Assembly (NCBI GenBank): GCA_017469925.1
Contig: JAFUFK010000017.1
Location: 26,183-90,182 of the forward strand
Direction: 5' to 3'
DNA from: Bacteroidaceae bacterium
Lineage (GTDB): Bacteria > Bacteroidota > Bacteroidia > Bacteroidales > Bacteroidaceae
Length of the DNA stretch: 64,000 bases
How positions within the stretch are numbered: position 1 is the first letter of the stretch; every line of letters starts with the position of its first letter. The notes under the pieces are model-generated. The model did no database searches and was not told the DNA's origin. It saw nothing but the letters and a program-made list of their open reading frames with translations. The position numbers and the translations under genes were made by a program. Positions 1 to 56,307 of the stretch are shown here, in pieces.

Positions 1-1472
1 GTGCCCTTGATGTGGTCGATGTCTTCGGGGAAGAAGAGTTGCTCCTGGGCATCGTCGCGCAGTTTGGTCATCTTGCTGGGCACGGAACCGGTGAAGCTGG
101 GGAACATGACCACGTTGAGCAGGCTACCCAGCGTACCCAATGGGATTTGGTCGATCTGGTAGTAGAGTTCGTCGAGGTTGGTGGGGGCGGTGTAGGGGAT
201 TTCGTCCTCCAGTCCCTCACGCAGGTAGTAGGTCTTGATGAGCTGCCAGCCGCCACCGCCTTCCGAGAAGTACTGCCACAGGGCCTCGTCGTCGGGGACG
301 AACATGGCCGTCATGTCGTACTGGGGAGCGGTTGCGCTGGTGGTGCGCCAGCGGTCGTCGTCCATGGCGATGGCGTTCCATCCCGGGTCGAACTTCAGCA
401 GGCCGACGTCTCTACCGGCTACGGGCTGGCCGTCGGGGTCGGAGCTCAGTTCGCGGTGTCCGTAACTCATCTTCGAGAAGTAGCGCTTGGTGAAGATGGA
501 GTCGGTCCACTGGATGCCGCGGGCAGCCATGACGTTCTTGTAGGCCTCGGTCACGCTGTAGTTGAAGAAGGGTGCACTCCAGCGGTCGAGCATGTGGCTG
601 AAGATGTTGGTCCGGCCACTGGTGCGGATGGCCTCTGCCATGTTGGGCAGGGGGACGATGACCTTTGAGGTCTTGTTGATGTAACCGTTTTCGGCTACGC
701 TGTCCTTGGCAATCAGCTTGGCGTCGTAGATGTGCACGTCGGCCGTGTTACGGGGCTCTCCCATGAAGATGGCGAAGTCCTCGTCGGTGACGTTGTTCTT
801 CGTCATGTGCTCGCTGGTGAAGTGGAGCATCATCGACAGGGAGGAGTCGGTGACCATGTAGAGTCCCTTACCGCCGTTCTCCTCGCGGAAACGCCACCAA
901 TAGTCGTTCTCGCCATTGCGCTCGTTGTAGTTGACGGGCAGCGAGTTGCCATCGAGGTAGGTGATGGTGTCGGTGGCCTCGACGTCGGTGTAGCGGCGCA
1001 TGAAGTCGCCTCGCGAGTCGATGTTGCTGCTACTGCTGGAGAGGTTCTCCATGACAATGGCATTGTTCAGCATGCTCGTGTGGATGAGCAACTTCTTCTG
1101 GCTTACCGACAGGTTCTCGTAGCTGGTAGCAGTGTGCCAGGGATTGCTCTCGGGCAGCAAGGCGTTGCGCTGGTAGAATTCGTTCCAGGCATCGTCGTTG
1201 GCTACGAACACTGTCTTCGAACCAGTTCGAGAAAGCACCTCGGTGAGGGGGCGTGCATCAGTGGGGTTGACATCGGGGTCGGCCAGCAGACGGAGGTAGT
1301 TCTTGTAGTGTCCGTCTTCGTCCAAACCCTCGTAAATGCTCGTACTGAGCCACGTTGGCTTTTCATCGTCCAACACGTACTCGTCCTTACATGATGTCGA
1401 AACACCGCTGACCGCCAGCAGGAGCAACATGAAGTACGCGGCCCTGCTCAGTTTGCTTAAACGGTTTTTCAT
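1..1472 (-). CDS. Fasciclin-domain-like lipoprotein, 3' end cut off by window edge
   Basis: The reading frame is open from an ATG at 1472 to the window edge (490 codons) with no stop, so the C-terminus lies outside. The protein begins with a lipoprotein signal: basic start, hydrophobic core MLLLLAVSGVS and a lipobox-like TSC with the acylated Cys at residue 28. The part just after it (ILYEGLDEDGHY-like text, LADP.., TEVLSRTGSKTVFVANDD) is typical of the Bacteroidales surface lipoproteins that carry fasciclin domains, where 'GSKTVF.AxDDAF' opens the domain. These are usually found with SusC/SusD-type glycan or adhesion loci; no SusC/D is visible here, but the locus continues beyond the edge. 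Ligand and role are not deducible. The family call rests on the N-terminal resemblance only. Confidence 0.7.
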   Translation of the reverse strand, partial: MKNRLSKLSRAAYFMLLLLAVSGVSTSCKDEYVLDDEKPTWLSTSIYEGLDEDGHYKNYLRLLADPDVNPTDARPLTEVLSRTGSKTVFVANDDAWNEFYQRNALLPESNPWHTATSYENLSVSQKKLLIHTSMLNNAIVMENLSSSSSNIDSRGDFMRRYTDVEATDTITYLDGNSLPVNYNERNGENDYWWRFREENGGKGLYMVTDSSLSMMLHFTSEHMTKNNVTDEDFAIFMGEPRNTADVHIYDAKLIAKDSVAENGYINKTSKVIVPLPNMAEAIRTSGRTNIFSHMLDRWSAPFFNYSVTEAYKNVMAARGIQWTDSIFTKRYFSKMSYGHRELSSDPDGQPVAGRDVGLLKFDPGWNAIAMDDDRWRTTSATAPQYDMTAMFVPDDEALWQYFSEGGGGWQLIKTYYLREGLEDEIPYTAPTNLDELYYQIDQIPLGTLGSLLNVVMFPSFTGSVPSKMTKLRDDAQEQLFFPEDIDHIKG

Positions 1473-1535
1473 ACAAATTAAGAGTTTAGGTTTAATTATT
1501 GTTTTGTTTTTGTCATTTCATGGTTTTTCAAGTTA

Positions 1536-1543
1536 CAAATATA
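1536..1543 (-). promoter_or_regulatory. Probable -7 box for the fasciclin-like lipoprotein
   Basis: The minus strand reads TATATTTG, a match to the Bacteroidota -7 consensus TAnnTTTG, 63 bases before the ATG at 1472. No TTG is seen 19-21 bases further upstream, so only half the promoter is supported. Confidence 0.45.
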
Positions 1544-1703
1544 ACCTTATTTTAAGACCTGTTAAGGTTTTTTAGCCTACATTTTTGCTTTTGTTAACTT
1601 CTTTTAACAATTCGGGGCGACATTTCCTCCTATTCTTCCCTACTTAGGGCGTCGCATACCATATTATATATATTACGCGCGCGAAAAATCAGCCTCCCGG
1701 AGA

Positions 1704-1818
1704 AGGTTAACTTAACCTGCCGCCTTATGTTAACATAACTTGCGCCCCCAAGTTAACATTACCTATGGCCCTATGTTAACATAACCTGTGCGCACAGGTT
1801 AACTTAACTTGCAAGCAC
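1704..1818 (-). repeat. Five-unit GTTAAC array with exact 23-bp period (copy 1)
   Basis: GTTAAC starts at 1706, 1729, 1752, 1775 and 1798, so the period is exactly 23 bp for five units. Each unit has a conserved AT-rich core of about 15 bp (A[AGT]GTTAAC[AT]TAAC[CT]T on the plus strand) followed by about 8 bp of variable, mostly GC-rich sequence. Read on the minus strand the array starts about 95 bp after the stop of the GH128-like gene and just past its terminator, with AAGTTAAGTTAACCT as the first core. A second array of the same design is at 46940-47054. Confidence 0.9.
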
Positions 1819-1840
1819 GGCACCGTCGGGGTATAAACAA

Positions 1841-1873
1841 AACGCCCCGTTTCTCATTGAGAAACAGGGCGTT
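1841..1873 (-). terminator. Intrinsic terminator of the GH128-like gene
   Basis: A near-perfect 15-bp stem (AACGCCCTGTTTCTC with one wobble) with a 3-base loop, followed on the minus strand by TTTTG. It starts 31 bases after the stop codon at 1905. The stem sequence is almost the same as that of the terminator at 46879-46910, which also precedes a 23-bp-period array. Confidence 0.85.
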
Positions 1874-1904
1874 ATGTAGTGCGTCGGGGGCGGTGGCTAT
1901 GGGC

Positions 1905-4667
1905 CTACTTCACCTGCACCTTGATGCTGCGCTTGCCGTTCGTGACGATGTAAACGCCCTTCGGCAGGCGCTGACCCAGTGCCACGCGGGCACCGCTGGG
2001 CGCATAGGCGGTCAGTCCCTCGCCATCGGCGTGGATGATGCCGTCGGCCACGCTGACGCTGAAGCCGTCGTGGGCAGCCACCGCCGCGATGGCTGTGGGC
2101 ACGATGATGGGCTCTTCGTCGCCCGTGCCGTTCGGGTCGTCGCTGATGACGAACCAACCGATGTAGTCGCCATTGTTCTTGGCGTTGTTGGTAGCCGTCT
2201 CGCTGGTGTTGGTGCCATCTACCTGTCGGCGGATGCTGGCGCTATAGACACCCTCGTCGGTGCTCGACGTGCTGTGCATGCGGAAGATGCTGGCCTTGCC
2301 GTAGTTGTTGGTCTGCGGCGCGGCGATGATGTAGGGATTCAGGAAGTGCAGGGTATCGCCCTCCGTGTTCCTGAAGACAACATTCTGGCGAGCCGTTCCG
2401 CCCACGGGGGTCTCCGTGTCGCGGCCTACGGTCAGCAACTTACCCTGGCCGATGGCAATCTGGCCGGGATTGGCGGCAAAGTAGTTGACGTTCTGGTTGT
2501 TGAAGTTGCTGGTAACACCCTCCTGGCGAACCAACTTCACCTTGAAGCCCGTGTTCGTGACGTCATAGACCTTGACCGTGACGGGGGCATAGGTGGCCAC
2601 GCTCGTGTTCTGCTGGGCAACCACTACGGGTACGACACCCTCGGGGAAGGCCTCGGGGAAGCTGACTTCCACCTCGTCGCCCTTGACGTTGCCAATCTTC
2701 TTCGAGATGAGCATCATGTCGTCGGAGAGGTGGTAAACGGTGTCGGGCGGCAATACGAGATAGTCGGCCGTCTCAGCCGCAGAGAAGGTAACGGGCGTGG
2801 TGAGCTGCCAGGGGTAGAAACGGAACTTGAAGCTGCTCTTGGCCAGGCTCTGTACCTGGTTGGTGATGCCGTTGGCGGTGTTCTTGTTCGATATCATGCC
2901 CACTACGACATAGGGCACGGCGTCGCCGGCCGTCAGGTCGATGGTCGTACTCTCGTCGTTGGCAATCTTTATCTGTCCGTATTGCAGCGAGCCCACGGCG
3001 TCGGCGGCCGTGATGCTTACGCTGGCTTCCGAGGTGATGTACTTGCGGGCGTTGTTGTAGTACTCTGCCACGTGATAGTAGTAGATGCCGGGGTCGGAGA
3101 TGGTGTCGGTGTAGGTGTAGCTGACGTCGCTGGCACTCGTCTTGTCCTTCGGCGTCACGTTGCCGCGCTTGGTCCAGCGGGAAGAGCCGGGCAACTTGCA
3201 CTCTACGACGATGCTGTCCAGCATGTCGCCGTTGGGGTCGGTCCAGCTGAGGGCAAAGGTCTTGCGAGCCTTGGTGTAGGTACCCGAAAGGGCACCGGGT
3301 GCCTTATAGACAATCTTGGGCACGTATTCGTTGGCCTTGTTGTAGGCCATGCCGCTCTCCATCGAGGCATAGTACTCGCCCAACTTGGTCAGTTTGCCGT
3401 TCTCGTAGATATGGGCCTTCGACTCGCTGTTCCAGTAGGCGTAGCGCTCGACGCGCGAATTGCTGTTGAGGGTGTTCAGGATGTTCTTGGTCTCGTTGAG
3501 AATCGTCGTCTCGTTGTCGGTACCGAAGGCGCCGTTTCGGTTCCACGATGCACCCCAGATCCACTCCGAAATCCAGATGGGACGGCCCTTGCCGTAGTTG
3601 TCGCTGTACCAGGTCAGGTTGTTGAACCCCGATGCCCAGTAGCAGTGGAGGTCCAGTATGTCGCAGCGCCAGCCGCGGGCATCGATACTGTCGATGAAGG
3701 CCTTGAGGTGGTTCATGCTGCCGTCGTGCGACGACTCGGAGCACAGGCGCATACCGGTGCGCATCAGGTTCTGCCAGTTGGCAAGCACCTCGGCCACCGT
3801 CTGCGGATGGTCGTCGGCCGAGTTGCCGGGCTCGTTGTTGGTCTTCATGTGGCACGAACCCGTCACACCGCCGCAGGTGGCCGACGAAGGCCAGTCCTCA
3901 TAGATGTGGTTGGGTACCCACTCTTGGTCGGGCAGCAGCGAGGCATTGCCTTGTGCCCAGTCGTAGCACCACGACGTGTTCAGGGCAGCATTGGCTGCCT
4001 TGTCACCGTTGCTGGCCAAGCCCTTCTTCTGGGCGTTGTACCACTGGAAGATGCGATACGACGAAATCTTGCCATTCAGCGGGGCGGGCACATTGCTGAC
4101 CTCGAGGTCCTCCATGTCGGCGATGAAGCAACGACTGTAGCCCCATCCGCCAGTGCCGACGGCGAAGGTGACCATGTAGCCACGCTTCAGTTTGAAGGAA
4201 CGGACCATGTTGTTGAGCGTCGTCTTGTTCATCGTGTTCATGTAGCCACCGCTGTTGCCCAGGCTGTAGTTGCTGTAGCTGTCGCCCTCGAAGTTGAGGC
4301 CGGTGTAGCAGGTCAGCGGCTTTATGGTGCTGGCATAGGGGAATACGATGGCACCTTGGGCGTACATCCGGACTTGGCAATTAGTGTTGTTTACAGCCTT
4401 TGCTCCGTTGATAAGTATGTTACCGAGGTGTTTGCTGATGACAACGCTTGGCTTGATGTTCTTGAAGATGACTACTGCGTGCTCGGTGTTGACAATGTCG
4501 ATGCTGCCGGCAGTGGTGAACGGCTCGGTACTGGTAATCGTGTAATCGACGTCGTCGGTCAGTGTCACTCCGCTTGTCACCTGTGTTACGGTGGTCACGG
4601 TGTTGCCTGCAAAAGCAGTTGCGGACAGCAGCAGGGCAACGAGTAGAAAGAGTGATTTGGCTTTCAT
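1905..4667 (-). CDS. Secreted GH128/Asl1-like glycoside hydrolase with C-terminal sorting tail
   Basis: A 920-residue secreted protein with a clear signal peptide (MKAKSLFLLVALLLSATAFA). Its middle part looks like a glycosyl hydrolase of the Asl1-like/GH128 type, a TIM barrel acting on beta-1,3-glucans: WCYDWAQG, then TNNEPGN (candidate acid/base Glu near residue 276), DLHCYWASG and WISEWIWGA (candidate nucleophile Glu near residue 365). Behind it are beta-rich parts, including a fibronectin-like stretch around residues 465-555. The end (GLTAYAPSGARV...KGVYIVTNGKRSI) looks like a type IX secretion sorting domain. The stop lies 31 bp from a strong terminator; the GH43 gene ends 6 bp before its ATG, so the two form an operon and probably act on the same polysaccharide. 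Substrate is inferred from family only. Confidence 0.75.
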   Translation of the reverse strand: MKAKSLFLLVALLLSATAFAGNTVTTVTQVTSGVTLTDDVDYTITSTEPFTTAGSIDIVNTEHAVVIFKNIKPSVVISKHLGNILINGAKAVNNTNCQVRMYAQGAIVFPYASTIKPLTCYTGLNFEGDSYSNYSLGNSGGYMNTMNKTTLNNMVRSFKLKRGYMVTFAVGTGGWGYSRCFIADMEDLEVSNVPAPLNGKISSYRIFQWYNAQKKGLASNGDKAANAALNTSWCYDWAQGNASLLPDQEWVPNHIYEDWPSSATCGGVTGSCHMKTNNEPGNSADDHPQTVAEVLANWQNLMRTGMRLCSESSHDGSMNHLKAFIDSIDARGWRCDILDLHCYWASGFNNLTWYSDNYGKGRPIWISEWIWGASWNRNGAFGTDNETTILNETKNILNTLNSNSRVERYAYWNSESKAHIYENGKLTKLGEYYASMESGMAYNKANEYVPKIVYKAPGALSGTYTKARKTFALSWTDPNGDMLDSIVVECKLPGSSRWTKRGNVTPKDKTSASDVSYTYTDTISDPGIYYYHVAEYYNNARKYITSEASVSITAADAVGSLQYGQIKIANDESTTIDLTAGDAVPYVVVGMISNKNTANGITNQVQSLAKSSFKFRFYPWQLTTPVTFSAAETADYLVLPPDTVYHLSDDMMLISKKIGNVKGDEVEVSFPEAFPEGVVPVVVAQQNTSVATYAPVTVKVYDVTNTGFKVKLVRQEGVTSNFNNQNVNYFAANPGQIAIGQGKLLTVGRDTETPVGGTARQNVVFRNTEGDTLHFLNPYIIAAPQTNNYGKASIFRMHSTSSTDEGVYSASIRRQVDGTNTSETATNNAKNNGDYIGWFVISDDPNGTGDEEPIIVPTAIAAVAAHDGFSVSVADGIIHADGEGLTAYAPSGARVALGQRLPKGVYIVTNGKRSIKVQVK

Positions 4668-27783: not shown

Positions 27784-28347
27784 ATGAAAAAGATTATGAT
27801 GATGGCCCTCGTGGCAATGATTACCTTGAGCGCAACGGCTCAGAATCGTCCCAGTCGTGAAGAGATGCAGGCACGCCGTGCCGAGCAGATAGAGAAACAG
27901 GCCGACCGTCTGTCCAAGGACTTTGACCTGAAGGGCGATGCCAAGACCAACTTCGTGGCCACCTACAAGGCCTATCAGGACGAACTGGCGAGCACCATGA
28001 TGCAAGGCCGCCAGCGCCAGACAGGCCGCGAGCGTGGCGAGCAGGCCGACAGCAAGAAACTGACCAGCGAACAGGCCCAGAAGCAGCTCGAGGAGTACTT
28101 CTCGCGTCAGGAGGAACAAATCGCCCAGCAACAGAAGCGCCTGGAGATAGAGAAGAAGTATTGCACCGAACTCAGCAAAACGCTGACTCCCCAGCAACTG
28201 GTGAAAATCTTTGGCCAGCGCCAGGGCCAGCAACAGCAGCGCCAGGGCGGCATGCAGCGCCAAGGTGGCTTCGGCGGTCCTCAGGGCGGCGGTCGTGGCG
28301 GTTTCGGCGGAGGCCAGGGTGGCTTCGGCGGTGGCGCTGACTTCTAA
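27784..28347 (+). CDS. Periplasmic Spy/DUF4890-like protein with Gly/Gln-rich tail
   Basis: 187 residues from ATG 27784, which follows an AT-rich leader. Signal peptide MKKIMMMALVAMITLSATAQ. The mature part is helical, rich in Arg, Gln and Glu (EEMQARRAEQIEKQADRLSK, YCTELSKTLTPQQLVKIFGQR), like the Spy/CpxP chaperone-type proteins common in Bacteroidota. The last 45 residues are Gln/Gly/Phe-rich low complexity (GGFGGPQGGGRGGFGGG). Likely periplasmic; any chaperone role is inference. A terminator follows at 28390-28426. Confidence 0.7.
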   Translation: MKKIMMMALVAMITLSATAQNRPSREEMQARRAEQIEKQADRLSKDFDLKGDAKTNFVATYKAYQDELASTMMQGRQRQTGRERGEQADSKKLTSEQAQKQLEEYFSRQEEQIAQQQKRLEIEKKYCTELSKTLTPQQLVKIFGQRQGQQQQRQGGMQRQGGFGGPQGGGRGGFGGGQGGFGGGADF

Positions 28348-45382: not shown

Positions 45383-45426
45383 TAATTAAATTGCGAATTA
45401 TGGATGCAGATTCCTGATAAATTTTG

Positions 45427-45434
45427 TATTTTTG
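45427..45434 (+). promoter_or_regulatory. -7 box of the tannase-like gene
   Basis: TATTTTTG matches TAnnTTTG, 34 bases before the chosen ATG at 45469. The earlier in-frame ATG at 45424 overlaps the box and is unlikely to be used. Confidence 0.55.
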
Positions 45435-45468
45435 CCGAGAAGAAAACTATAAAACGCGTAAAAGTAAG

Positions 45469-46839
45469 ATGAAAAAGCTATTGGTAATGACAGCAATCCT
45501 CGCCACATCAGCATGCACGGTGGCAAAAAACGACCCCCTGGCCTTCAAGGCCGAAGGCCAAACTCAGGAACTCACCCTCCTCGACGGGCGCGTGGTGCGA
45601 TACACGGCCTACCTGAACATCCCCTACGTAAGCAACCCCGAGGACCCCAACTTCCAGGTACTCAACTACTTCGTGCCCGAGGGTGCCACCAGTCGCTCGG
45701 CCATCCTCCTGCGCACCTACGTGGGCGGTTACATGGCCGCCTCTGCCAAGACCCCGTCGGCCACCGACGCCACCGGCCGTGCCCTCGTCGAGGGCCTATG
45801 CGTCTGCATCCCCGCGAGCCGGGGCAATAACTCGGAAGTCGATGGCCGCTTCACGGGCAAGGCCCCACGGGGACTCCTCGACCTGAAGGCCGCCATTCGC
45901 TACCTCCGCCACAACGACAAGCGCATGCCTGGTTCGGCCGAACGCATCATCACCGACGGCACCAGCGCGGGCGGAGCCATGAGTGCCCTGCTGGGCGCTA
46001 CGGCCAACCACCCCGACTACGAACCCCTCCTGAAGGCCATGGGCGCCGCACGGGCTCGCGACGACGTCTTTGCCTCCGTCTGCTACTGCCCCATCACCGA
46101 CCTCGACCATGCCGACATGGCCTACGAGTGGCTCTACCTCCACCAGCGCCCCGACACCGAGGCCTCGCGACCGATGGCCCGCCAGTTCGACGAGTACATC
46201 AACTCCCTCCACCTCCGCAATCCCAAGACGGGCGAGTCTCTCACCGCCGACAACTATATGGACTACCTGAAGTCGTGGCTCCTGGCCTCTGCCCAGCGCT
46301 TCACCGACGAGGGCGGCGTGATAGACGACTCGCTGGGCTTCCAGCGCTACCTCTACTTCCCCCAGACGCCCGGTCACCGCCCCGGCGGCCCTCGCCTGAT
46401 ACGTGCCAAGGCCCGTGAGTCGGAGACCCTCTCCGACGTCGATATGGACAACTACCTCCACTATGTGGCAAGCCGTCAGGCCTTGAAGGAGCGTCCCGCC
46501 TTCGACCGTCTCGACTCGCCCGAGTGCAGCCTCTTTGGCGACGCAGAGGGCAATCCCGCCCACTTCACAGGCGACGGCCTCAGTGACGAACTGCGGCAGC
46601 GCGTGCGCATGATGAATCCCATGCCTTACATCTCCGACCCCCGTGCCACAACGGCTCCCCACTGGTACATCCGCCACGGGGCCATCGACCGCGACACCTC
46701 GTTCCCCATCCCCGTCAACCTGGCCACGAAACTCATGAACGAGGGCCGCGACGTCAACTTCGCCCTGCCCTGGAACCGCCGCCACGAGGGCGACTACAAT
46801 CTCGACGACCTCTTCCGCTGGCTCCACTCCATCCTGTAG
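45469..46839 (+). CDS. Exported alpha/beta hydrolase, subtype B tannase-like
   Basis: 456 residues from ATG 45469. The signal region ends in a lipobox-like TSACT (Cys 18), so it is probably a lipoprotein. Alpha/beta-hydrolase features: CVCIPASRGNNSEVDGRF, the nucleophile elbow DGTSAGGAMSALLGATA (Ser 166), CYCPITDLDHADMAYEW and HWYIRHGAIDRDTSFPIPVN. The pattern matches the bacterial subtype B tannase/feruloyl-esterase-like group, which cleaves galloyl or similar esters of plant phenolics. Activity on tannins is inference. A terminator and a 23-bp-period GTTAAC array follow. Confidence 0.75.
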   Translation: MKKLLVMTAILATSACTVAKNDPLAFKAEGQTQELTLLDGRVVRYTAYLNIPYVSNPEDPNFQVLNYFVPEGATSRSAILLRTYVGGYMAASAKTPSATDATGRALVEGLCVCIPASRGNNSEVDGRFTGKAPRGLLDLKAAIRYLRHNDKRMPGSAERIITDGTSAGGAMSALLGATANHPDYEPLLKAMGAARARDDVFASVCYCPITDLDHADMAYEWLYLHQRPDTEASRPMARQFDEYINSLHLRNPKTGESLTADNYMDYLKSWLLASAQRFTDEGGVIDDSLGFQRYLYFPQTPGHRPGGPRLIRAKARESETLSDVDMDNYLHYVASRQALKERPAFDRLDSPECSLFGDAEGNPAHFTGDGLSDELRQRVRMMNPMPYISDPRATTAPHWYIRHGAIDRDTSFPIPVNLATKLMNEGRDVNFALPWNRRHEGDYNLDDLFRWLHSIL

Positions 46840-50987: not shown

Positions 50988-51761
50988 CTACTTAATATTC
51001 TTACGAATTCGGGTGAGGAAGCGCATAAACGCTTCCTCATCTTTTTTGTCGATAATCTGGATGAGGTCCTTTAGTTCGCTTCGTATGCCCTCGACGTGCG
51101 ACTTCGTGCGCGGGTTGAAGAGGATTTCGCGCAGCAGGGTGTCGTCCTCCGACAATACGCCACGGGCAATGGCCAAGTGGCGCTTGAAGGTAGTGCCCGG
51201 GGCATCCTGATGCCTCATGACGGCCGAGAAGACGAAGGTCGAGACAAACGGTACGCTGAGCGAGTAGGCCATCGCCTCGTCGTGCTCCTCGAAGGTGTAT
51301 TCGTGGACATTAAGCCCCAGCCGTCGATAGAGGTCGAGGAAGAAGACGCGCCCCAGGTAGTCGCCTTCGGAGATGACGATGGCATTCTCCGACGAGAGTG
51401 CGCCCAGATTGGCAAACGTAGGGCCGAACATGGGGTGGGTGCTGACGTAGTGCATGCCCGACTCCTCGTAAAACTCGTGGAGGCCCGTCTTCACGCTGGC
51501 GATGTCGCTGATGATGCAGTCCCCGTCGAGGAAGGGAATGACCTGGCGGAAGACGTCGATGGTGTACTTCAGCGTTACGCAGTTGATGACCAGGTCGGGA
51601 TGGAACTCGCGTATCTCGTCCATCGTGGTAAAGCGTAGCGTGTTGTAGAGGAATCGCATGCGCTTGGCATCGGTCTCATATACGGCCGTCTCGTGGTCGA
51701 AGGAGAGCACGTCGGCAAAGAAACTCCCCATCTTTCCGGCACCGAGGATTAAAATTTTCAT
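50988..51761 (-). CDS. tyrA: Prephenate dehydrogenase
   Basis: A 257-residue NAD(P)-dependent enzyme turning prephenate into 4-hydroxyphenylpyruvate on the way to tyrosine. Seen: Rossmann start MKILILGAGKMGSFFADVLS, VINCVTLKYTIDVFRQVI, ISDIASVKTGLHEFYEESG and HYVSTHPMFGPTFANL with the catalytic His region. It is short, with no ACT domain. Last gene of pheA-aminotransferase-aroF/CM-tyrA, overlapping the preceding gene by 4 bp; its control is expected from the Phe/Tyr leader upstream of pheA. Confidence 0.9.
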   Translation of the reverse strand: MKILILGAGKMGSFFADVLSFDHETAVYETDAKRMRFLYNTLRFTTMDEIREFHPDLVINCVTLKYTIDVFRQVIPFLDGDCIISDIASVKTGLHEFYEESGMHYVSTHPMFGPTFANLGALSSENAIVISEGDYLGRVFFLDLYRRLGLNVHEYTFEEHDEAMAYSLSVPFVSTFVFSAVMRHQDAPGTTFKRHLAIARGVLSEDDTLLREILFNPRTKSHVEGIRSELKDLIQIIDKKDEEAFMRFLTRIRKNIK

Positions 51762-52822
51762 TTGTTAATGATTTCCATTTGTTGTCGTACGCTTTCTTCA
51801 TGGATGGACTCATAAATGCGGCGCACGAAGTCGGAACTCATGCCACAGAGCGAACCCTGCGCCCCGCGCTTGTCGAGAATCTCGTTGTAGCGGGTGGCCT
51901 GGACGACGGCCATGTTGTGCTCCTTCTTGTAAGTGGCGATTTCGCGTGAAACGCGCATGCGCTTCGTCAGGAGGTCCATGAGTTGGTTGTCCATGTCGTC
52001 GATTTGCTTGCGCATGCTGGCCAGCGACTCGGTCATTTCGGCGTTGTCGCGGATAACCAGACGGTCGATGATGAAGTCGAGCACATCGGGCAGCACCTGC
52101 TGAGGAGCATCGCTCCAGGCCTGGTCGGGATTGCAGTGGCTCTCGACCAAGAGTCCGTCGAAGCCCATGTCCATGGCCTGCTGGCAGAGCGGGGCCACGA
52201 GGTCGCGACGGCCTCCCATGTGGCTCGGGTCGCACACGATGGGCAGTTGGGGATAGCGGCGATGCAGTTCGATGGGGATGTGCCACATGGGTGTGTTGCG
52301 GTAAATCTTCTGGTCGATGCTCGTGAATCCGCGGTGGATGGCTCCCAGTCGGCGGATGCCGGCACGGTTGAAGCGCAGCAGGGCACCAATCCACAACTCC
52401 AGGTCAGGACTGACGGGATTCTTCACCAGCACGGGCACGTCCACACCCTTCAGGCTATCGGCCAGTGCCTGTACGGCAAAGGGGTTGACCGTCGTGCGCG
52501 CACCAATCCACAGGATGTCGATGCCGTAGCGCAAGGCCAGTTCCACGTGTTCGGGCTTGGCCACCTCGATGGCCGTGAGCATGCCCGTCTCCCTTTTTAC
52601 CTGTTGGAGCCAGGGCAGGGCGGGTTCGCCGTGGCCTTCGAAGCCTCCGGGTTTGGTGCGGGGCTTCCAGACACCGGCACGGAACATGTGGCATCCCTTG
52701 TCGGCCAACTGGCGGGCAGTGGTCATTACTTGTTCTTCGGTCTCGGCCGAGCATGGACCTGCGATGACGAAAGGTCGTGGCCGGTCGCTGGGCAGATTAA
52801 GTGGTAATAGTTCGAGTTCCAT
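51758..52822 (-). CDS. Bifunctional DAHP synthase / chorismate mutase
   Basis: A 354-residue fusion. Residues 1 to about 250 are a DAHP synthase of the short type (PFVIAGPCSAETEEQVMTTA, FRAGVWKPRTKPGGFEG, WIGARTTVNPFAVQALAD, LPIVCDPSHMGGRRDLVAPL). Residues about 265-354 are an AroQ-type chorismate mutase (SLASMRKQIDDMDNQLMDLL, MRVSREIATYKKEHNMAVVQ, RYNEILDKR). It catalyses the first step of the shikimate pathway and the branch step to prephenate. The mutase fused at the C-terminus is usual in Bacteroidota and probably also serves feedback control. It is 4 bp past the aminotransferase stop and overlaps tyrA by 4 bp. Confidence 0.95.
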   Translation of the reverse strand: MELELLPLNLPSDRPRPFVIAGPCSAETEEQVMTTARQLADKGCHMFRAGVWKPRTKPGGFEGHGEPALPWLQQVKRETGMLTAIEVAKPEHVELALRYGIDILWIGARTTVNPFAVQALADSLKGVDVPVLVKNPVSPDLELWIGALLRFNRAGIRRLGAIHRGFTSIDQKIYRNTPMWHIPIELHRRYPQLPIVCDPSHMGGRRDLVAPLCQQAMDMGFDGLLVESHCNPDQAWSDAPQQVLPDVLDFIIDRLVIRDNAEMTESLASMRKQIDDMDNQLMDLLTKRMRVSREIATYKKEHNMAVVQATRYNEILDKRGAQGSLCGMSSDFVRRIYESIHEESVRQQMEIINK

Positions 52823-52826
52823 ATCT

Positions 52827-54011
52827 TCAATCTTTCAATTTTTTAATTCTCTCCAGTGCTTCCCGGAACTTATCTTCTTTGGCACAAAGCGAGATGCGGA
52901 CGTAGCGTCGGCCGTTCGAGCCGAAGATGAAGCCAGGCGTCAGGAACACACGCGCCTCGTGGAGCACTCGTTCGGTAATCGTCTCGGCATCGTCCACGCC
53001 GTCGGGGATGCGCCCCCAGAGGAACATGCCCACCTGACGAGGGTCGAAGGTGCACCCCAGCGTGTGCAGGATTTCCTCGGCCAGTTGCCGGCGTCGGGCG
53101 TAGGTCTCGACGTTGGCTTGCAGGTGCCATTCGTCGCTGTTCTGATAGGCCTGAGCCGCGGCCAGTTGCATGGGGCGAAAGGTGCCTGAGTCGATGTTCG
53201 ACTTCACCTTCAGAATCCACCGTATGAACTCGGCATTCGTGGCCAGCATGCCCACGCGCCAGCCGGGCATGTTGTGCGACTTCGACATCGAATTGAATTC
53301 GATGCAGCACTCCTTGGCACCAGGCACCTGAAGGAGGCTCAGCCTTTCCTCGCGGTTGAGGATAAATGAGTAGGGATTGTCGTTGACGACGACGATGCCG
53401 TGCTGGCGTGCAAACTCCACCAGCCGTTCGTACGTCTTGCGTTGGGCATTAGCCCCTGTGGGCATGTTGGGGTAGTTTGTCCACATCAGTTTGACGTCCG
53501 TGAGGTCCATCCCCTCCAACTGGTCGAAGTCGGGTTGCCACCCGCCAGCCTCCCGGAGGTCGTAGTTCACGATCTGTGCACCCAGCAGTCGGCTCAAGGC
53601 CGTGTAGGTGGGATAGCCAGGGTTGGGCACGAGCACCTTGTCGCCGGGGTTGACGAAGGCCAGGGTGACGTGCAGTATGCCCTCCTTCGAGCCGATGAGG
53701 GGCTGTATCTCGCAGGCAGGGTCGAGTGTTACGCCATACCAGCGCTTATAGAATCCCGCCATGGCCTGACGGAGTTCGGGCGTGCCCACGGTGGGCTGAT
53801 AGCCGTGTGTGTCGGCCTTTCGGGCTTCGCGACACAGCACGTCGATGGTCTCCTCCGAAGGAGGCATATCGGGGCTTCCGATGGCCAGTGAGATGACGTT
53901 CAGTCCCTCCTGATTCATGCGGGCCACCTCCTTCAGTTTTTGGCTGAAGTAGTACTCCTGGACATTCTCGAGCCGACGTGCGGGTTGTATGCTATATGCT
54001 TTGTTTCCCAT
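52827..54011 (-). CDS. Class I/II aminotransferase, probably aromatic
   Basis: A 394-residue PLP enzyme of fold type I. Seen: VISLAIGSPDMPPSEETID, YQPTVGTPELRQAMAGFY, PNPGYPTYTALSRLLGA, NYPNMPTGANAQ and the PLP-lysine region EFNSMSKSHNMPGWRVG near residue 243, then RISLCAKEDKFREALERI. It resembles the DapL/AlaC-like branch. Its place between pheA (20-bp overlap) and the DAHP synthase strongly suggests transamination of phenylpyruvate, hydroxyphenylpyruvate or prephenate, but that is inference from context. Confidence 0.85.
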   Translation of the reverse strand: MGNKAYSIQPARRLENVQEYYFSQKLKEVARMNQEGLNVISLAIGSPDMPPSEETIDVLCREARKADTHGYQPTVGTPELRQAMAGFYKRWYGVTLDPACEIQPLIGSKEGILHVTLAFVNPGDKVLVPNPGYPTYTALSRLLGAQIVNYDLREAGGWQPDFDQLEGMDLTDVKLMWTNYPNMPTGANAQRKTYERLVEFARQHGIVVVNDNPYSFILNREERLSLLQVPGAKECCIEFNSMSKSHNMPGWRVGMLATNAEFIRWILKVKSNIDSGTFRPMQLAAAQAYQNSDEWHLQANVETYARRRQLAEEILHTLGCTFDPRQVGMFLWGRIPDGVDDAETITERVLHEARVFLTPGFIFGSNGRRYVRISLCAKEDKFREALERIKKLKD

Positions 54012-54837
54012 CCTTATATTCTCCTAAAAGTTTGAGGTTGCGGGTCAGTGGTGTGATGGCATTGATGGCCTGGCGATAGCGGGTATAGTCCGAGAAGGAG
54101 AGGTCGATGTAGAACATGTATTGCCACTCCTTGCCGATAATGGGCAACGATTGTATCTTCGTCAGGTTCAACTTATAGAAACTGAGCACGCTCAATATGG
54201 CCGACAGGCTGCCCTCCTCGTGGGGTAGGGTGAAGACGAGGCTCGACTTGTCCACCCGTCGCAGGTCGCGCTGGCGTGGCGCCTCCTCCGGCGTGGCCAG
54301 GACGAGGAAGCGTGTGAAGTTGTGCTTGTTCGTCTCTATGCCTTCCTGCAAGACCTTCATGCCATAGATTTCGGCCGCATCCTTGTGGCAGATGGCGGCG
54401 TGTCCGTGCAGATGTCCGCGGCTAATGTCGGCGGCGGCACCTGCCGTATCGGCCACTTCCACCACCTTCAGGCCGCGATGCTCCGAGAGGAATTCGCGAC
54501 ACTGCATCAGAGCCACGGGGTGGGAGTTGATTTCCTGAAGGTCGCCCCAGTCGTCGTCGGGCAGACACATGAGGCTGTGGCTGATACGCAGTTTGTGTTC
54601 CCCTACGATGGTCAGGCCCGAGTCGCGCATGAGTTCATAGTTGTGTAGCAGACTGCCTGCGATGGTGTTCTCTATGGCCACCATAGCCACGGCGTGAGGG
54701 TCGTGGCGTACGGCCTCGAACACCTCCTCGAACGTGTCGCAACAGATAAGCTCCACCTCCCCATCCTCGTAGTATCGGTGGGCAGCAATGTCGTGGAAAC
54801 TGCCCTCTATGCCCTGTATCGCTACTCTTTGTCTCAT
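53992..54837 (-). CDS. pheA: Prephenate dehydratase
   Basis: A 281-residue enzyme converting prephenate to phenylpyruvate. Dehydratase domain, residues 1-185: VAIQGIEGSFHDIAAHRYY, MVAIENTIAGSLLHNYELM, SHPVALMQCREFL and NKHNFTRFLVLA. An ACT domain follows (KSSLVFTLPHEEGSLSAILS). The ACT motif usually written ESRP is here QSLP (LTKIQSLPIIGKEW), so classic Phe feedback binding may be altered. It is the first structural gene behind a Phe/Tyr leader peptide and attenuator, and overlaps the aminotransferase by 20 bp. Confidence 0.95.
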   Translation of the reverse strand: MRQRVAIQGIEGSFHDIAAHRYYEDGEVELICCDTFEEVFEAVRHDPHAVAMVAIENTIAGSLLHNYELMRDSGLTIVGEHKLRISHSLMCLPDDDWGDLQEINSHPVALMQCREFLSEHRGLKVVEVADTAGAAADISRGHLHGHAAICHKDAAEIYGMKVLQEGIETNKHNFTRFLVLATPEEAPRQRDLRRVDKSSLVFTLPHEEGSLSAILSVLSFYKLNLTKIQSLPIIGKEWQYMFYIDLSFSDYTRYRQAINAITPLTRNLKLLGEYKDGKQSI

Positions 54838-54855
54838 ATCGCGTCCTTTTTAACA

Positions 54856-54885
54856 AAAATCCCGCTCCTTTTCATGGAAGCGGGA
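54856..54885 (-). terminator. Attenuator terminator in the pheA leader
   Basis: The minus strand reads TCCCGCTTCC, a short loop, GGAGCGGGA and TTTTTG: a GC-rich stem of 9 bp with a bulged T, ending 18 bases before the pheA ATG. Its left half can alternatively pair, perfectly over 9 bp, with the end of the leader ORF (54936-54944). Confidence 0.9.
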
Positions 54886-54925
54886 CTTGTATTTCATTTT
54901 CTCATTTTCTCTATTTTTCAATTTC

Positions 54926-55000
54926 TTACACGCCTTCCCGCTTCACTCTATTGCTAAAGTAAAAGTAATAGGTATAGGCGTAAAAGTAAGAACCCTTCAT
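54926..55000 (-). CDS. Aromatic (Phe/Tyr) leader peptide of the pheA-tyrA operon
   Basis: A 24-codon ORF from ATG 55000 to a TAA at 54926. It encodes MKGSYFYAYTYYFYFSNR and then VKREGV. Residues 5-15 contain six Tyr and three Phe, nine aromatic residues out of eleven. It starts about 27 bases after the predicted transcription start. Codons 19-22 (GTG AAG CGG GAA) contain GAAGCGGGA, which pairs with TCCCGCTTC of the terminator stem. A ribosome stalled on early Tyr/Phe codons leaves this segment free to block the terminator; one reaching the stop codon covers it. This is the standard design of ribosome-mediated attenuation. Confidence 0.88.
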   Translation of the reverse strand: MKGSYFYAYTYYFYFSNRVKREGV

Positions 55001-55033
55001 CTTTCTCTTGACGTTTTGTTACGTTTCTGGATG

Positions 55034-55064
55034 CAAAAGTAATAACTTTTTGTGAAACAGCCAA
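55034..55064 (-). promoter_or_regulatory. Promoter of the pheA leader and operon
   Basis: The minus strand has TTG (55064-55062), exactly 20 bases, then TACTTTTG (55041-55034), a full match to the Bacteroidota consensus. It starts 8 bp past the stop of the permease gene. Confidence 0.8.
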
Positions 55065-55071
55065 GCTTTGC

Positions 55072-56307
55072 TTAAATTATTTCATACCCAATGCCTTGTA
55101 CGGCCTGTTTTACTGCCTCCGAGTCGAAGTTTCCCGACACGGTTGCAGAGCCGTTCGATAGGCTTACGCTCACGTCTTCCACGCCCTCCACCGAGCGGAT
55201 GGCCCGCTCTACGTTTGTGGCGCAGTGGCTACAGCTCATGCCCTTGACACAGAACTCCGTCGTTTCCGCATCAGTGCCGTCCAGTGCCTCATGGTCGTGA
55301 TCGTCATGGTGATGCAACAGGGCGTTTAGCAAGAAGAATATGAGCAGGGATGCACACACGATATTGAACTTGCTAAAGCTATCCTCGGTGCAGCAACTGC
55401 CCTGCATGATGAGGCTCGACGTAAACCATTCGCGAGGCAACAGGTAGTCGATGCCCAGCCCGAAGCATACGGCACCGCTCACAATGGCGAATAGGTAGAG
55501 TAGGAGAGTGCGACGACCAAGAACCTTGTTGATGACCAGCATGCTGGCTACGTTACAGGCCGGACCTGCCATCAGCAACACCAGCGCGGCACCCGGCGTC
55601 AGGCCCTTCATCATCAGGGCTACGGCGATGGGGATACTGCCCGTGGCGCAGACGTACATCGGTACGCTGATGCAGAGCACCAGGAGAATGCTGAGCAACG
55701 AGTTGTCCTTGAACACCGCGAACCACCCGTCGGGCACCAGTGCCGTAATCATGCCAGCCACGATAAGTCCGATGACAAGCCACTTCCCAATGTCGCCCAT
55801 CATCTCAACAAACCCATACATAATACTGTCTTTCAGCTTCTGTATGATGGACTTGTGCTCGCCCGGTTCCTTGGAGCGCCGTGCCACGACGATTTCGTCG
55901 TCCGACTGGAATACGTTTACCAGCGTACCACCAAAGAGTGCCGTCACGAAGGCCACTATCGGGCGCAGGATGGCAAAGGGCAACCCCATCAGCGAGTAAG
56001 TGGCGATAATACTATCCACACCCGTCTGCGGCGTGGCAATCAGAAAGGAGATGGTGGCTCCGCGACTACCTCCCTCGCGACGCAGTCCCATAGCCGTAGG
56101 CAGTACACCACACGAACACAAGGGCAGGGGCACGCCAAACAGCGCGGCAAGTAGCACGCTCCGGAAGTTTGGGCGACTGAGGTAGTCGGCGTACACACGA
56201 TGGGGGATGAACTCGTGCATCAGGCCAGCCAACAGGAAGCCGAGCAACAGATACGGCGCCATTTCTGCCGTCATACCCCAAATGTCTAAAAGAAGATTCA
56301 GTACCAT
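55072..56307 (-). CDS. SO_0444-type Cu/Zn efflux permease with C-terminal HMA domain
   Basis: A 411-residue membrane protein. Permease part, residues 1 to about 325, with at least eight hydrophobic segments: PYLLLGFLLAGLMHEFIP, LFGVPLPLCSCGVLPTAMGL (the Cys pair of this family), ISFLIATPQTGVDSI, and LVLLMAGPACNVASMLVINK. A His/Asp stretch (HHHDDHDHEALDG, residues about 326-338) and an HMA metal-binding domain with CVKGMSCSHCATNVERAI complete it. Predicted to export or buffer Cu/Zn-type metals at the inner membrane. A palindrome lies next to its -7 box. Confidence 0.88.
   Translation of the reverse strand: MVLNLLLDIWGMTAEMAPYLLLGFLLAGLMHEFIPHRVYADYLSRPNFRSVLLAALFGVPLPLCSCGVLPTAMGLRREGGSRGATISFLIATPQTGVDSIIATYSLMGLPFAILRPIVAFVTALFGGTLVNVFQSDDEIVVARRSKEPGEHKSIIQKLKDSIMYGFVEMMGDIGKWLVIGLIVAGMITALVPDGWFAVFKDNSLLSILLVLCISVPMYVCATGSIPIAVALMMKGLTPGAALVLLMAGPACNVASMLVINKVLGRRTLLLYLFAIVSGAVCFGLGIDYLLPREWFTSSLIMQGSCCTEDSFSKFNIVCASLLIFFLLNALLHHHDDHDHEALDGTDAETTEFCVKGMSCSHCATNVERAIRSVEGVEDVSVSLSNGSATVSGNFDSEAVKQAVQGIGYEII

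Follow-up and report, generated by a model that had tools for sequence, protein, structure and literature searches.

Introduction

The pheA gene of enterobacteria is controlled by an attenuator (pheL-pheA) in which three alternative pairings of the leader RNA, 1:2, 2:3 and 3:4, compete. In trpL of Escherichia coli and in the multivalent ilv and thr leaders the regulatory codons lie in region 1 of this structure, and a single leader can carry codons for several amino acids. Attenuation of the trpL/pheL type is itself an already known mechanism.

In the Bacteroidetes, related forms of control have been approached from several directions. In Flavobacterium psychrophilum, 'strong clues' for leader-peptide attenuation before amino-acid operons were described in the searchable text of a 2021 report, together with a structured 5' element before pheA that is present in other Flavobacteriaceae and had no Rfam hits (PMC9723704). 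The Bacteroid-trp motif (RF01692) has been presented, in the part of the source that is searchable, as a putative cis-regulatory RNA of the phylum (PMC2864571), and short ORFs reminiscent of leader peptides were noted in Bacteroides thetaiotaomicron in a paper whose main text, as far as it is searchable, does not mention pheA (PMC7366714). The searchable main text of PMC2965389 mentions neither Bacteroid, Flavobacter, phenylalanine nor pheA. Attenuators can also be doubled, as in the Salmonella mgtCBR leader, where two leader ORFs and two attenuators respond to ATP and proline, a two-signal tandem called 'a singular example' by its authors in the searchable text (PMC3641672).

In this study, we followed up a sequence-only reading of a 64,000-nt stretch of DNA (the window), which had proposed a ribosome-mediated Phe/Tyr attenuator before a pheA operon. 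In the searchable full-text literature, outside of which most subscription papers lie, we found no description of the Bacteroidales element, its codon register, the switching of its codons or tandems of it that read the same signal.

Results

Parts of the locus

The features of the locus, and of copies of the element found elsewhere, are collected in Table 1. A promoter-like site, in which 20 nt separate a TTG from TACTTTTG, which we take to be the -7 element by the Bacteroidetes consensus TAnnTTTG, is followed by the leader ORF and by an intrinsic terminator that lies between this ORF and the first gene, pheA. The terminator stem, TCCCGCTTC/GGAGCGGGA, has eight Watson-Crick pairs and one U.G pair, and its left arm (region 3) is fully complementary over 9 bp to GAAGCGGGA (region 2), so that this antiterminator pairing and the terminator are mutually exclusive. 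The promoter-like site, the 24-codon ORF, the terminator and the perfect 9-bp pairing had all been named in the sequence-only reading, and each was confirmed.

Table 1. Coordinates of the attenuator, the operon and further loci (window positions unless a locus is named)
Feature	Position	Strand	Basis
Attenuator element (promoter-like site, leader ORF, terminator, alternative pairing)	54838-55064	-	
TTG of the -33 promoter-like element	55062-55064	-	sequence
-7 element TACTTTTG	55034-55041	-	sequence
Leader ORF MKGSYFYAYTYYFYFSNRVKREGV*, 24 codons, Phe/Tyr-rich	54926-55000	-	sequence, recurrence in relatives
1:2 hairpin, aromatic codons (region 1) with region 2 and flanks	54923-54992	-	fold, swap tests
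Region 2, antiterminator 5' half, GAAGCGGGA	54936-54944	-	9/9 pairs with region 3
Region 3, antiterminator 3' half and terminator left arm, TCCCGCTTC	54877-54885	-	pairing, co-evolution with region 2
Intrinsic terminator	54855-54885 (stem 54885-54860; T run, TTTTT, 54859-54855)	-	
pheA, prephenate dehydratase	53992-54837 (ATG at 54837)	-	Pfam PF00800, E 7e-55
Class I/II aminotransferase	52827-54011	-	Pfam PF00155
DAHP synthase-chorismate mutase fusion (DAHPS/CM)	51758-52822	-	Pfam PF00793 and PF01817
tyrA, prephenate dehydrogenase	50988-51761	-	Pfam PF02153, E 2e-11
Metal-efflux gene upstream of the element	55072-56307	-	
Gly-rich short ORF with terminator-like stem	28252-28347	+	composition scan
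Phe-rich copy, L178 with L218	251-1955 (L178); 256-1566 (L218)		
Phe-rich copy, L179 with L219 (ACT-pair protein in L219)			
Tyr-rich copy, L305, before PaaK-like ligase and ACT-pair protein gene	248-2146		
Tyr-rich copy, L306, before sodium:solute symporter	before 3144-1567	-	

The leader ORF carries nine Tyr or Phe residues, at positions 5, 6, 7, 9 and 11-15, and is thereby rich in codons for the amino acids that the operon makes; the earlier suggestion that a leader mixing Tyr and Phe suits an operon producing both is supported. Among 1106 ATG-started ORFs of 8-60 aa in the window (752 on the plus and 354 on the minus strand, nested starts counted), it is the sole one with at least 8 Phe/Tyr in any 12 residues, and only two starts of one frame, at 45398-45514, reach 7. 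A composition scan that sought a terminator behind short ORFs enriched in a single amino acid returned the Phe/Tyr leader and one unrelated Gly-rich match on the opposite strand. An Rfam scan of the window gave zero matches to any family, and a T-box was set aside on that ground; Phe_leader (RF01859) reached at best 26.9 bits in ten related loci, below its gathering score of 55 bits, and Bacteroid-trp (RF01692) was absent in the window and not among the matches at E up to 1 in the same ten loci, where no Rfam family came close to its gathering score.

Recurrence in relatives

Of 153 upstream regions, 132 have a leader with a terminator before pheA: 36 of 39 in the genus, 36 of 39 in the family, 43 of 46 in the order and 17 of 29 in the class set. 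No such leader is present in 12 of the 29 class-level and 3 of the 46 order-level regions. The genus loci are not a random sample: L001-L030 are the 30 best matches by similarity, L031 came from the family search, and eight more distant ones were picked by hand, two of them pheA copies of one genome (G022). Left out of the 153 were a 49-nt stub (L069) and two duplicates (L169, L170); two apparent misses reflect window size (L018, where the covariance model places the leader further upstream) and the terminator scan (L024). Of 117 pheA upstream regions, 103 contain an ATG-started ORF that reaches 7 or more Phe/Tyr within 12 residues; on the opposite strand, 3 do. In 113 of 131 loci the consensus TAnnTTTG occurs at most 85 nt from the start of the leader, a number that drops to 6 after shuffling, and a TTG lies 16-24 nt upstream of the -7 element in 95 of 131.

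With an E cut-off of 0.1, a covariance model of 72 genus and family sequences, many from the very genomes searched, matched 120 of 139 genus genomes (one, G048, partially) and 45 of 61 family genomes, some of these matches not being before pheA. Twelve genus genomes have pheA and no model match, and none of the nine that were checked has a leader. Among the 80 best loci of a search of titled genomes, mostly MAGs and partly the same contigs as in the other sets, 73 carry leader and terminator; of the other seven, four have a leader and no terminator by the scan, and one ends at 115 nt. Named carriers include Phocaeicola vulgatus ATCC 8482, P. massiliensis, Bacteroides fragilis S82, B. xylanisolvens XB1A and Paraprevotella xylaniphila.

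Some loci differ in layout. A methyltransferase-domain gene stands between attenuator and pheA in L195 and L196. Distant PheA homologues (31-33% identity) from genomes of the same bacterial family, G182 and G157 (L116, L117), lack an aromatic leader, and in G157 the stretch directly upstream of the homologue matches the DAHPS/CM query.

Alternative pairings

The 198-nt leader RNA folds more stably than all of 200 dinucleotide shuffles (z -4.27). In free folding, the aromatic codons pair with region 2 and its flanks at -22.9 kcal/mol, forming a 1:2 hairpin that contains the regulatory codons. The sequence-only reading had described the locus as lacking a separate 1:2 hairpin, and here it fails on the evidence of folds and swap tests, the hairpin lying inside the ORF and having been missed; with it, the logic of the attenuator is that of the ordinary trpL/pheL type.

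We examined co-evolution with an alignment-free swap test, in which the pairing of each locus's own segments is compared with their pairing to segments of other loci. In the main test (60 order- and class-level loci, one element per locus, unfiltered), own segments paired better than foreign ones for 1:2 (-17.6 vs -12.2 kcal/mol, p 1e-9) and for 2:3 (-17.4 vs -11.4 kcal/mol, p 5e-11) and not for the 1:3 control (-6.2 vs -5.8 kcal/mol, p 0.29), p values that are optimistic, since the loci are related and their independence is overstated. A second test, limited to elements with at least 6 pairs in 2:3, gave the same result in the genus, family, order and class sets. For the terminator, 9 of 11 pairs predicted in family alignment A2 show at least one two-sided change that keeps the pair, one shows one-sided changes only and one is invariant. 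The family consensus fold (72 sequences) supports the 1:2 stem weakly, with five pairs, one having a two-sided change; in our opinion the stem is short because region 1 shifts register between sequences, and since consensus folding is weak for 1:2 the swap tests were used in its place. The case for 1:2 thus rests on these tests together with single-sequence folds. A comparison of relatives' pheA upstream regions, which the sequence-only reading had put forward as a check, bore it out in that aromatic leader ORFs recur and stems co-evolve.

Spacing of codons and region 2

Counted over the 133 of 142 elements that have at least 6 pairs in 2:3 (nine with fewer being left out), the interval between the last aromatic codon and the start of region 2 is 6-17 nt in 130, with group medians of 9 to 12 nt. 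Relative to where region 2 starts, the end of the stop codon varies between 12 nt upstream and 60 nt downstream, so that the placement of region 2 within the leader ORF, emphasized in the earlier reading, holds in the window and is not conserved. What is conserved is the spacing between region 2 and the last aromatic codon, with the position of the stop codon free. The leading edge of a bacterial ribosome lies at about +15 from the first base of the P-site codon, which is about 10 nt past the A-site codon; a ribosome at the last aromatic codon would therefore just spare region 2, and the near-fixed register fits a stalled ribosome.

A simplified ribosome walk, in which pairing around the ribosome was forbidden, gave the same picture in silico, a stall at the regulatory codons freeing region 2. 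In the window, the predicted probability of 2:3 pairing is 0.98 with the last aromatic codon in the A site, falls to 0.82, 0.52 and 0.05 at one, two and three codons past it, is near 0 with the ribosome at the stop codon, and is 0.02 with no ribosome, when region 1 holds region 2. Group means in relatives behave as in the window, except that without a ribosome 1:2 hides region 2 incompletely in many of them (group means 0.47-0.65). At equilibrium the full window RNA favours the terminator even in stalled states (P(3:4) 0.57-0.93), which means that the antiterminator must win kinetically, by forming first.

These results bear on a simpler two-state attenuator, in which a ribosome would just cover or expose region 2 with no 1:2 hairpin involved. 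Such a device would suit the place of region 2 inside the ORF in the window, the loss of 2:3 pairing with the ribosome at the stop codon and the short 1:2 stem of the consensus fold; we consider it very unlikely, given the stability of the 1:2 hairpin, the co-evolution of regions 1 and 2 and the near absence of 2:3 pairing in the ribosome-free window RNA.

Leader codons and the genes they precede

In 36 genus pheA leaders the Phe fraction, F/(F+Y), ranges from 0.22 to 0.56 with a median of 0.44. In 12 genus genomes the aminotransferase-DAHPS/CM genes lie apart from pheA and have their own attenuator; tyrA is included in 10 of these stretches, and the split-side leaders are mostly Tyr-rich (median 0.29, range 0.14-0.44, p 9.5e-5 vs the 36 pheA leaders). 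The pheA leaders kept in three of the split genomes (G094, G034 and G011) are Phe-rich, at 0.83, 0.71 and 0.86; eight others have pheA without a leader (including L174), and in G023 no pheA was found. Exceptions are the mixed split-side leaders of G094 (0.44) and G020 (0.43), and of G189, from another genus of the same family, whose leader (L303) has 5 Phe and 5 Tyr, with no terminator passing the scan downstream, and whose pheA (L111) has no leader. On balance, leader codon content mostly follows gene content, with these exceptions, which argues for tRNA charging as the signal; split operons are in effect natural codon swaps, informative on what is sensed without a mutation.

In L201-L207 pheA has no attenuator and the aminotransferase-DAHPS/CM side has its own; in L201 and L202 the frame ending just before pheA looks TrpB-type by eye. 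Other arrangements were also seen. In G060 the pheA leader is mixed and another copy lies at a contig end (L208, L183). In two genomes with no PheA match (L192, L193) a mixed leader lies directly before the aminotransferase gene, possibly because Phe synthesis was lost recently or because the MAG has a gap there.

The same comparisons speak to an arrest peptide of the TnaC kind, in which the nascent aromatic chain itself would sense a ligand and halt the ribosome. Many leaders of the genus and the family share the core YYFYFS and the tail VKRE, as an arrest peptide might lead one to expect; outside the family, however, the peptides diverge widely with Phe/Tyr content and register kept, Phe and Tyr mostly exchange with gene content, and the most conserved nucleotides of the family fall in the pairing regions, so that we regard this explanation as more improbable still than the two-state device.

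Model matches away from pheA were retrieved and their genes examined. Phe-rich copies in two genomes (8 or 7 Phe, 2 Tyr) precede porin-like, PaaI-like thioesterase and phenylacetate-CoA-ligase-like genes, the last followed in G013 by an ACT-pair protein. Phenylacetate is a known phenylalanine precursor in rumen bacteria, and these copies possibly control salvage of phenylacetate to Phe. In two family genomes without a PheA match, weak covariance-model matches (E 2e-4 and 0.003) correspond to Tyr-rich copies with 7 Tyr each, one having a single Phe and the other none; one precedes the PaaK-like ligase of L305 and the other the symporter of L306. The PaaK, PaaI and porin matches are below the curated model cut-offs, and their substrates are therefore what we infer.

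Probable tandem attenuators

Among the 60 order- and class-level loci in which leader and terminator are both present, 9 have two elements in series before pheA, each with its own leader ORF and terminator (L058, L063, L067, L086, L090, L093, L101, L104 and L162). First and second leaders alike mix Phe and Tyr. The pairing score of each region 2 is higher with the region 3 of its own element than with that of the other element in all except L093, narrowly so in L162. Six tandems are graded strong (L058, L063, L067, L090, L101 and L104), including L090 with a second pairing of only 5 bp; the weaker ones are L086, outside the usual register, L162, with own pairings of 5 bp, and L093. An apparent tandem in L053 has a single shared terminator and was left out of the count.

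Discussion

The element is very probably a ribosome-mediated transcription attenuator of the trpL/pheL type that reads charged tRNA-Phe and tRNA-Tyr together. Computation established its parts, their recurrence, the co-evolution of 1:2 and 2:3, the near-fixed register and a codon content that mostly matches the genes. The sequence-only reading thus stood in its naming of a Phe/Tyr attenuator, in the parts, the recurrence and the co-evolving stems, and not in its denial of a 1:2 hairpin. The weakest alternative, that the ordinary terminator of the metal-efflux gene lying upstream on the same strand happens to follow a chance short ORF, has almost no probability left, given the promoter-like site between that gene and the leader ORF and the same arrangement, with co-evolving stems, before pheA in other genomes.

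In the attenuator that we favour, RNA polymerase would start about 27 nt before the leader ORF, as judged from the promoter-like site, and the leader ORF would be translated. If either charged tRNA were short, as in starvation, the ribosome would stall at an aromatic codon and cover region 1, leaving region 2, which starts approximately at its leading edge, free to pair with region 3; this would block the terminator, and pheA, the aminotransferase gene, the DAHPS/CM fusion and tyrA would be transcribed by read-through. With both charged tRNAs plentiful, the ribosome would run over region 2, or leave and let 1:2 re-form, in which case region 3 would pair with region 4 and transcription in the cell would terminate about 170 nt from its start.

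We lean slightly towards a wider reading, in which much of the Bacteroidia would use one modular aromatic-codon attenuator, with the ribosomal leading edge fixing the spacing of codons and region 2 and the Phe:Tyr mix adjusted to the genes downstream (mixed before the joint operon; Phe-rich before a separate pheA and the phenylacetate-CoA-ligase-like operon; Tyr-rich before the tyrA side, the other arylacetate-ligase-like operon and the symporter), and with some lineages placing two in series for a steeper response. The mixed split-side leaders of G094, G020 and G189 count against it. If it is true, leader codons could predict substrates, e.g. that the symporter imports tyrosine or a precursor. 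For relatives among Bacteroides, Phocaeicola and Prevotella, the element offers a concrete and testable control of Phe and Tyr synthesis. The phylum makes weak use of Shine-Dalgarno sites, and since attenuation requires ribosome and polymerase to move in step, the element would also be a handle on transcription-translation coupling.

Compared with known systems, the element resembles enterobacterial pheL-pheA (Phe_leader RF01859) in having an aromatic-codon leader ORF before pheA and 1:2, 2:3 and 3:4 pairings, and differs in its mixed Phe and Tyr codons, its pheA-aminotransferase-DAHPS/CM-tyrA operon, its free stop codon position and a sequence that falls below the Rfam threshold. With E. coli trpL and the ilv and thr leaders it shares regulatory codons in region 1 and one leader serving several amino acids, unlike them in phylum, promoter type and the amino acids concerned. 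Bacteroid-trp (RF01692) is also a putative Bacteroidetes cis-regulatory RNA, but in the searchable part of its source it is named for trp (PMC2864571), and the pheA element of F. psychrophilum is, in section 19 of its source, limited to Flavobacteriaceae and given without leader sequence or pairing (PMC9723704). Whereas the two attenuators of mgtCBR, as far as the searchable text of their source goes, respond to different signals (PMC3641672), those of the tandems found here would both read Phe/Tyr, each with its own terminator.
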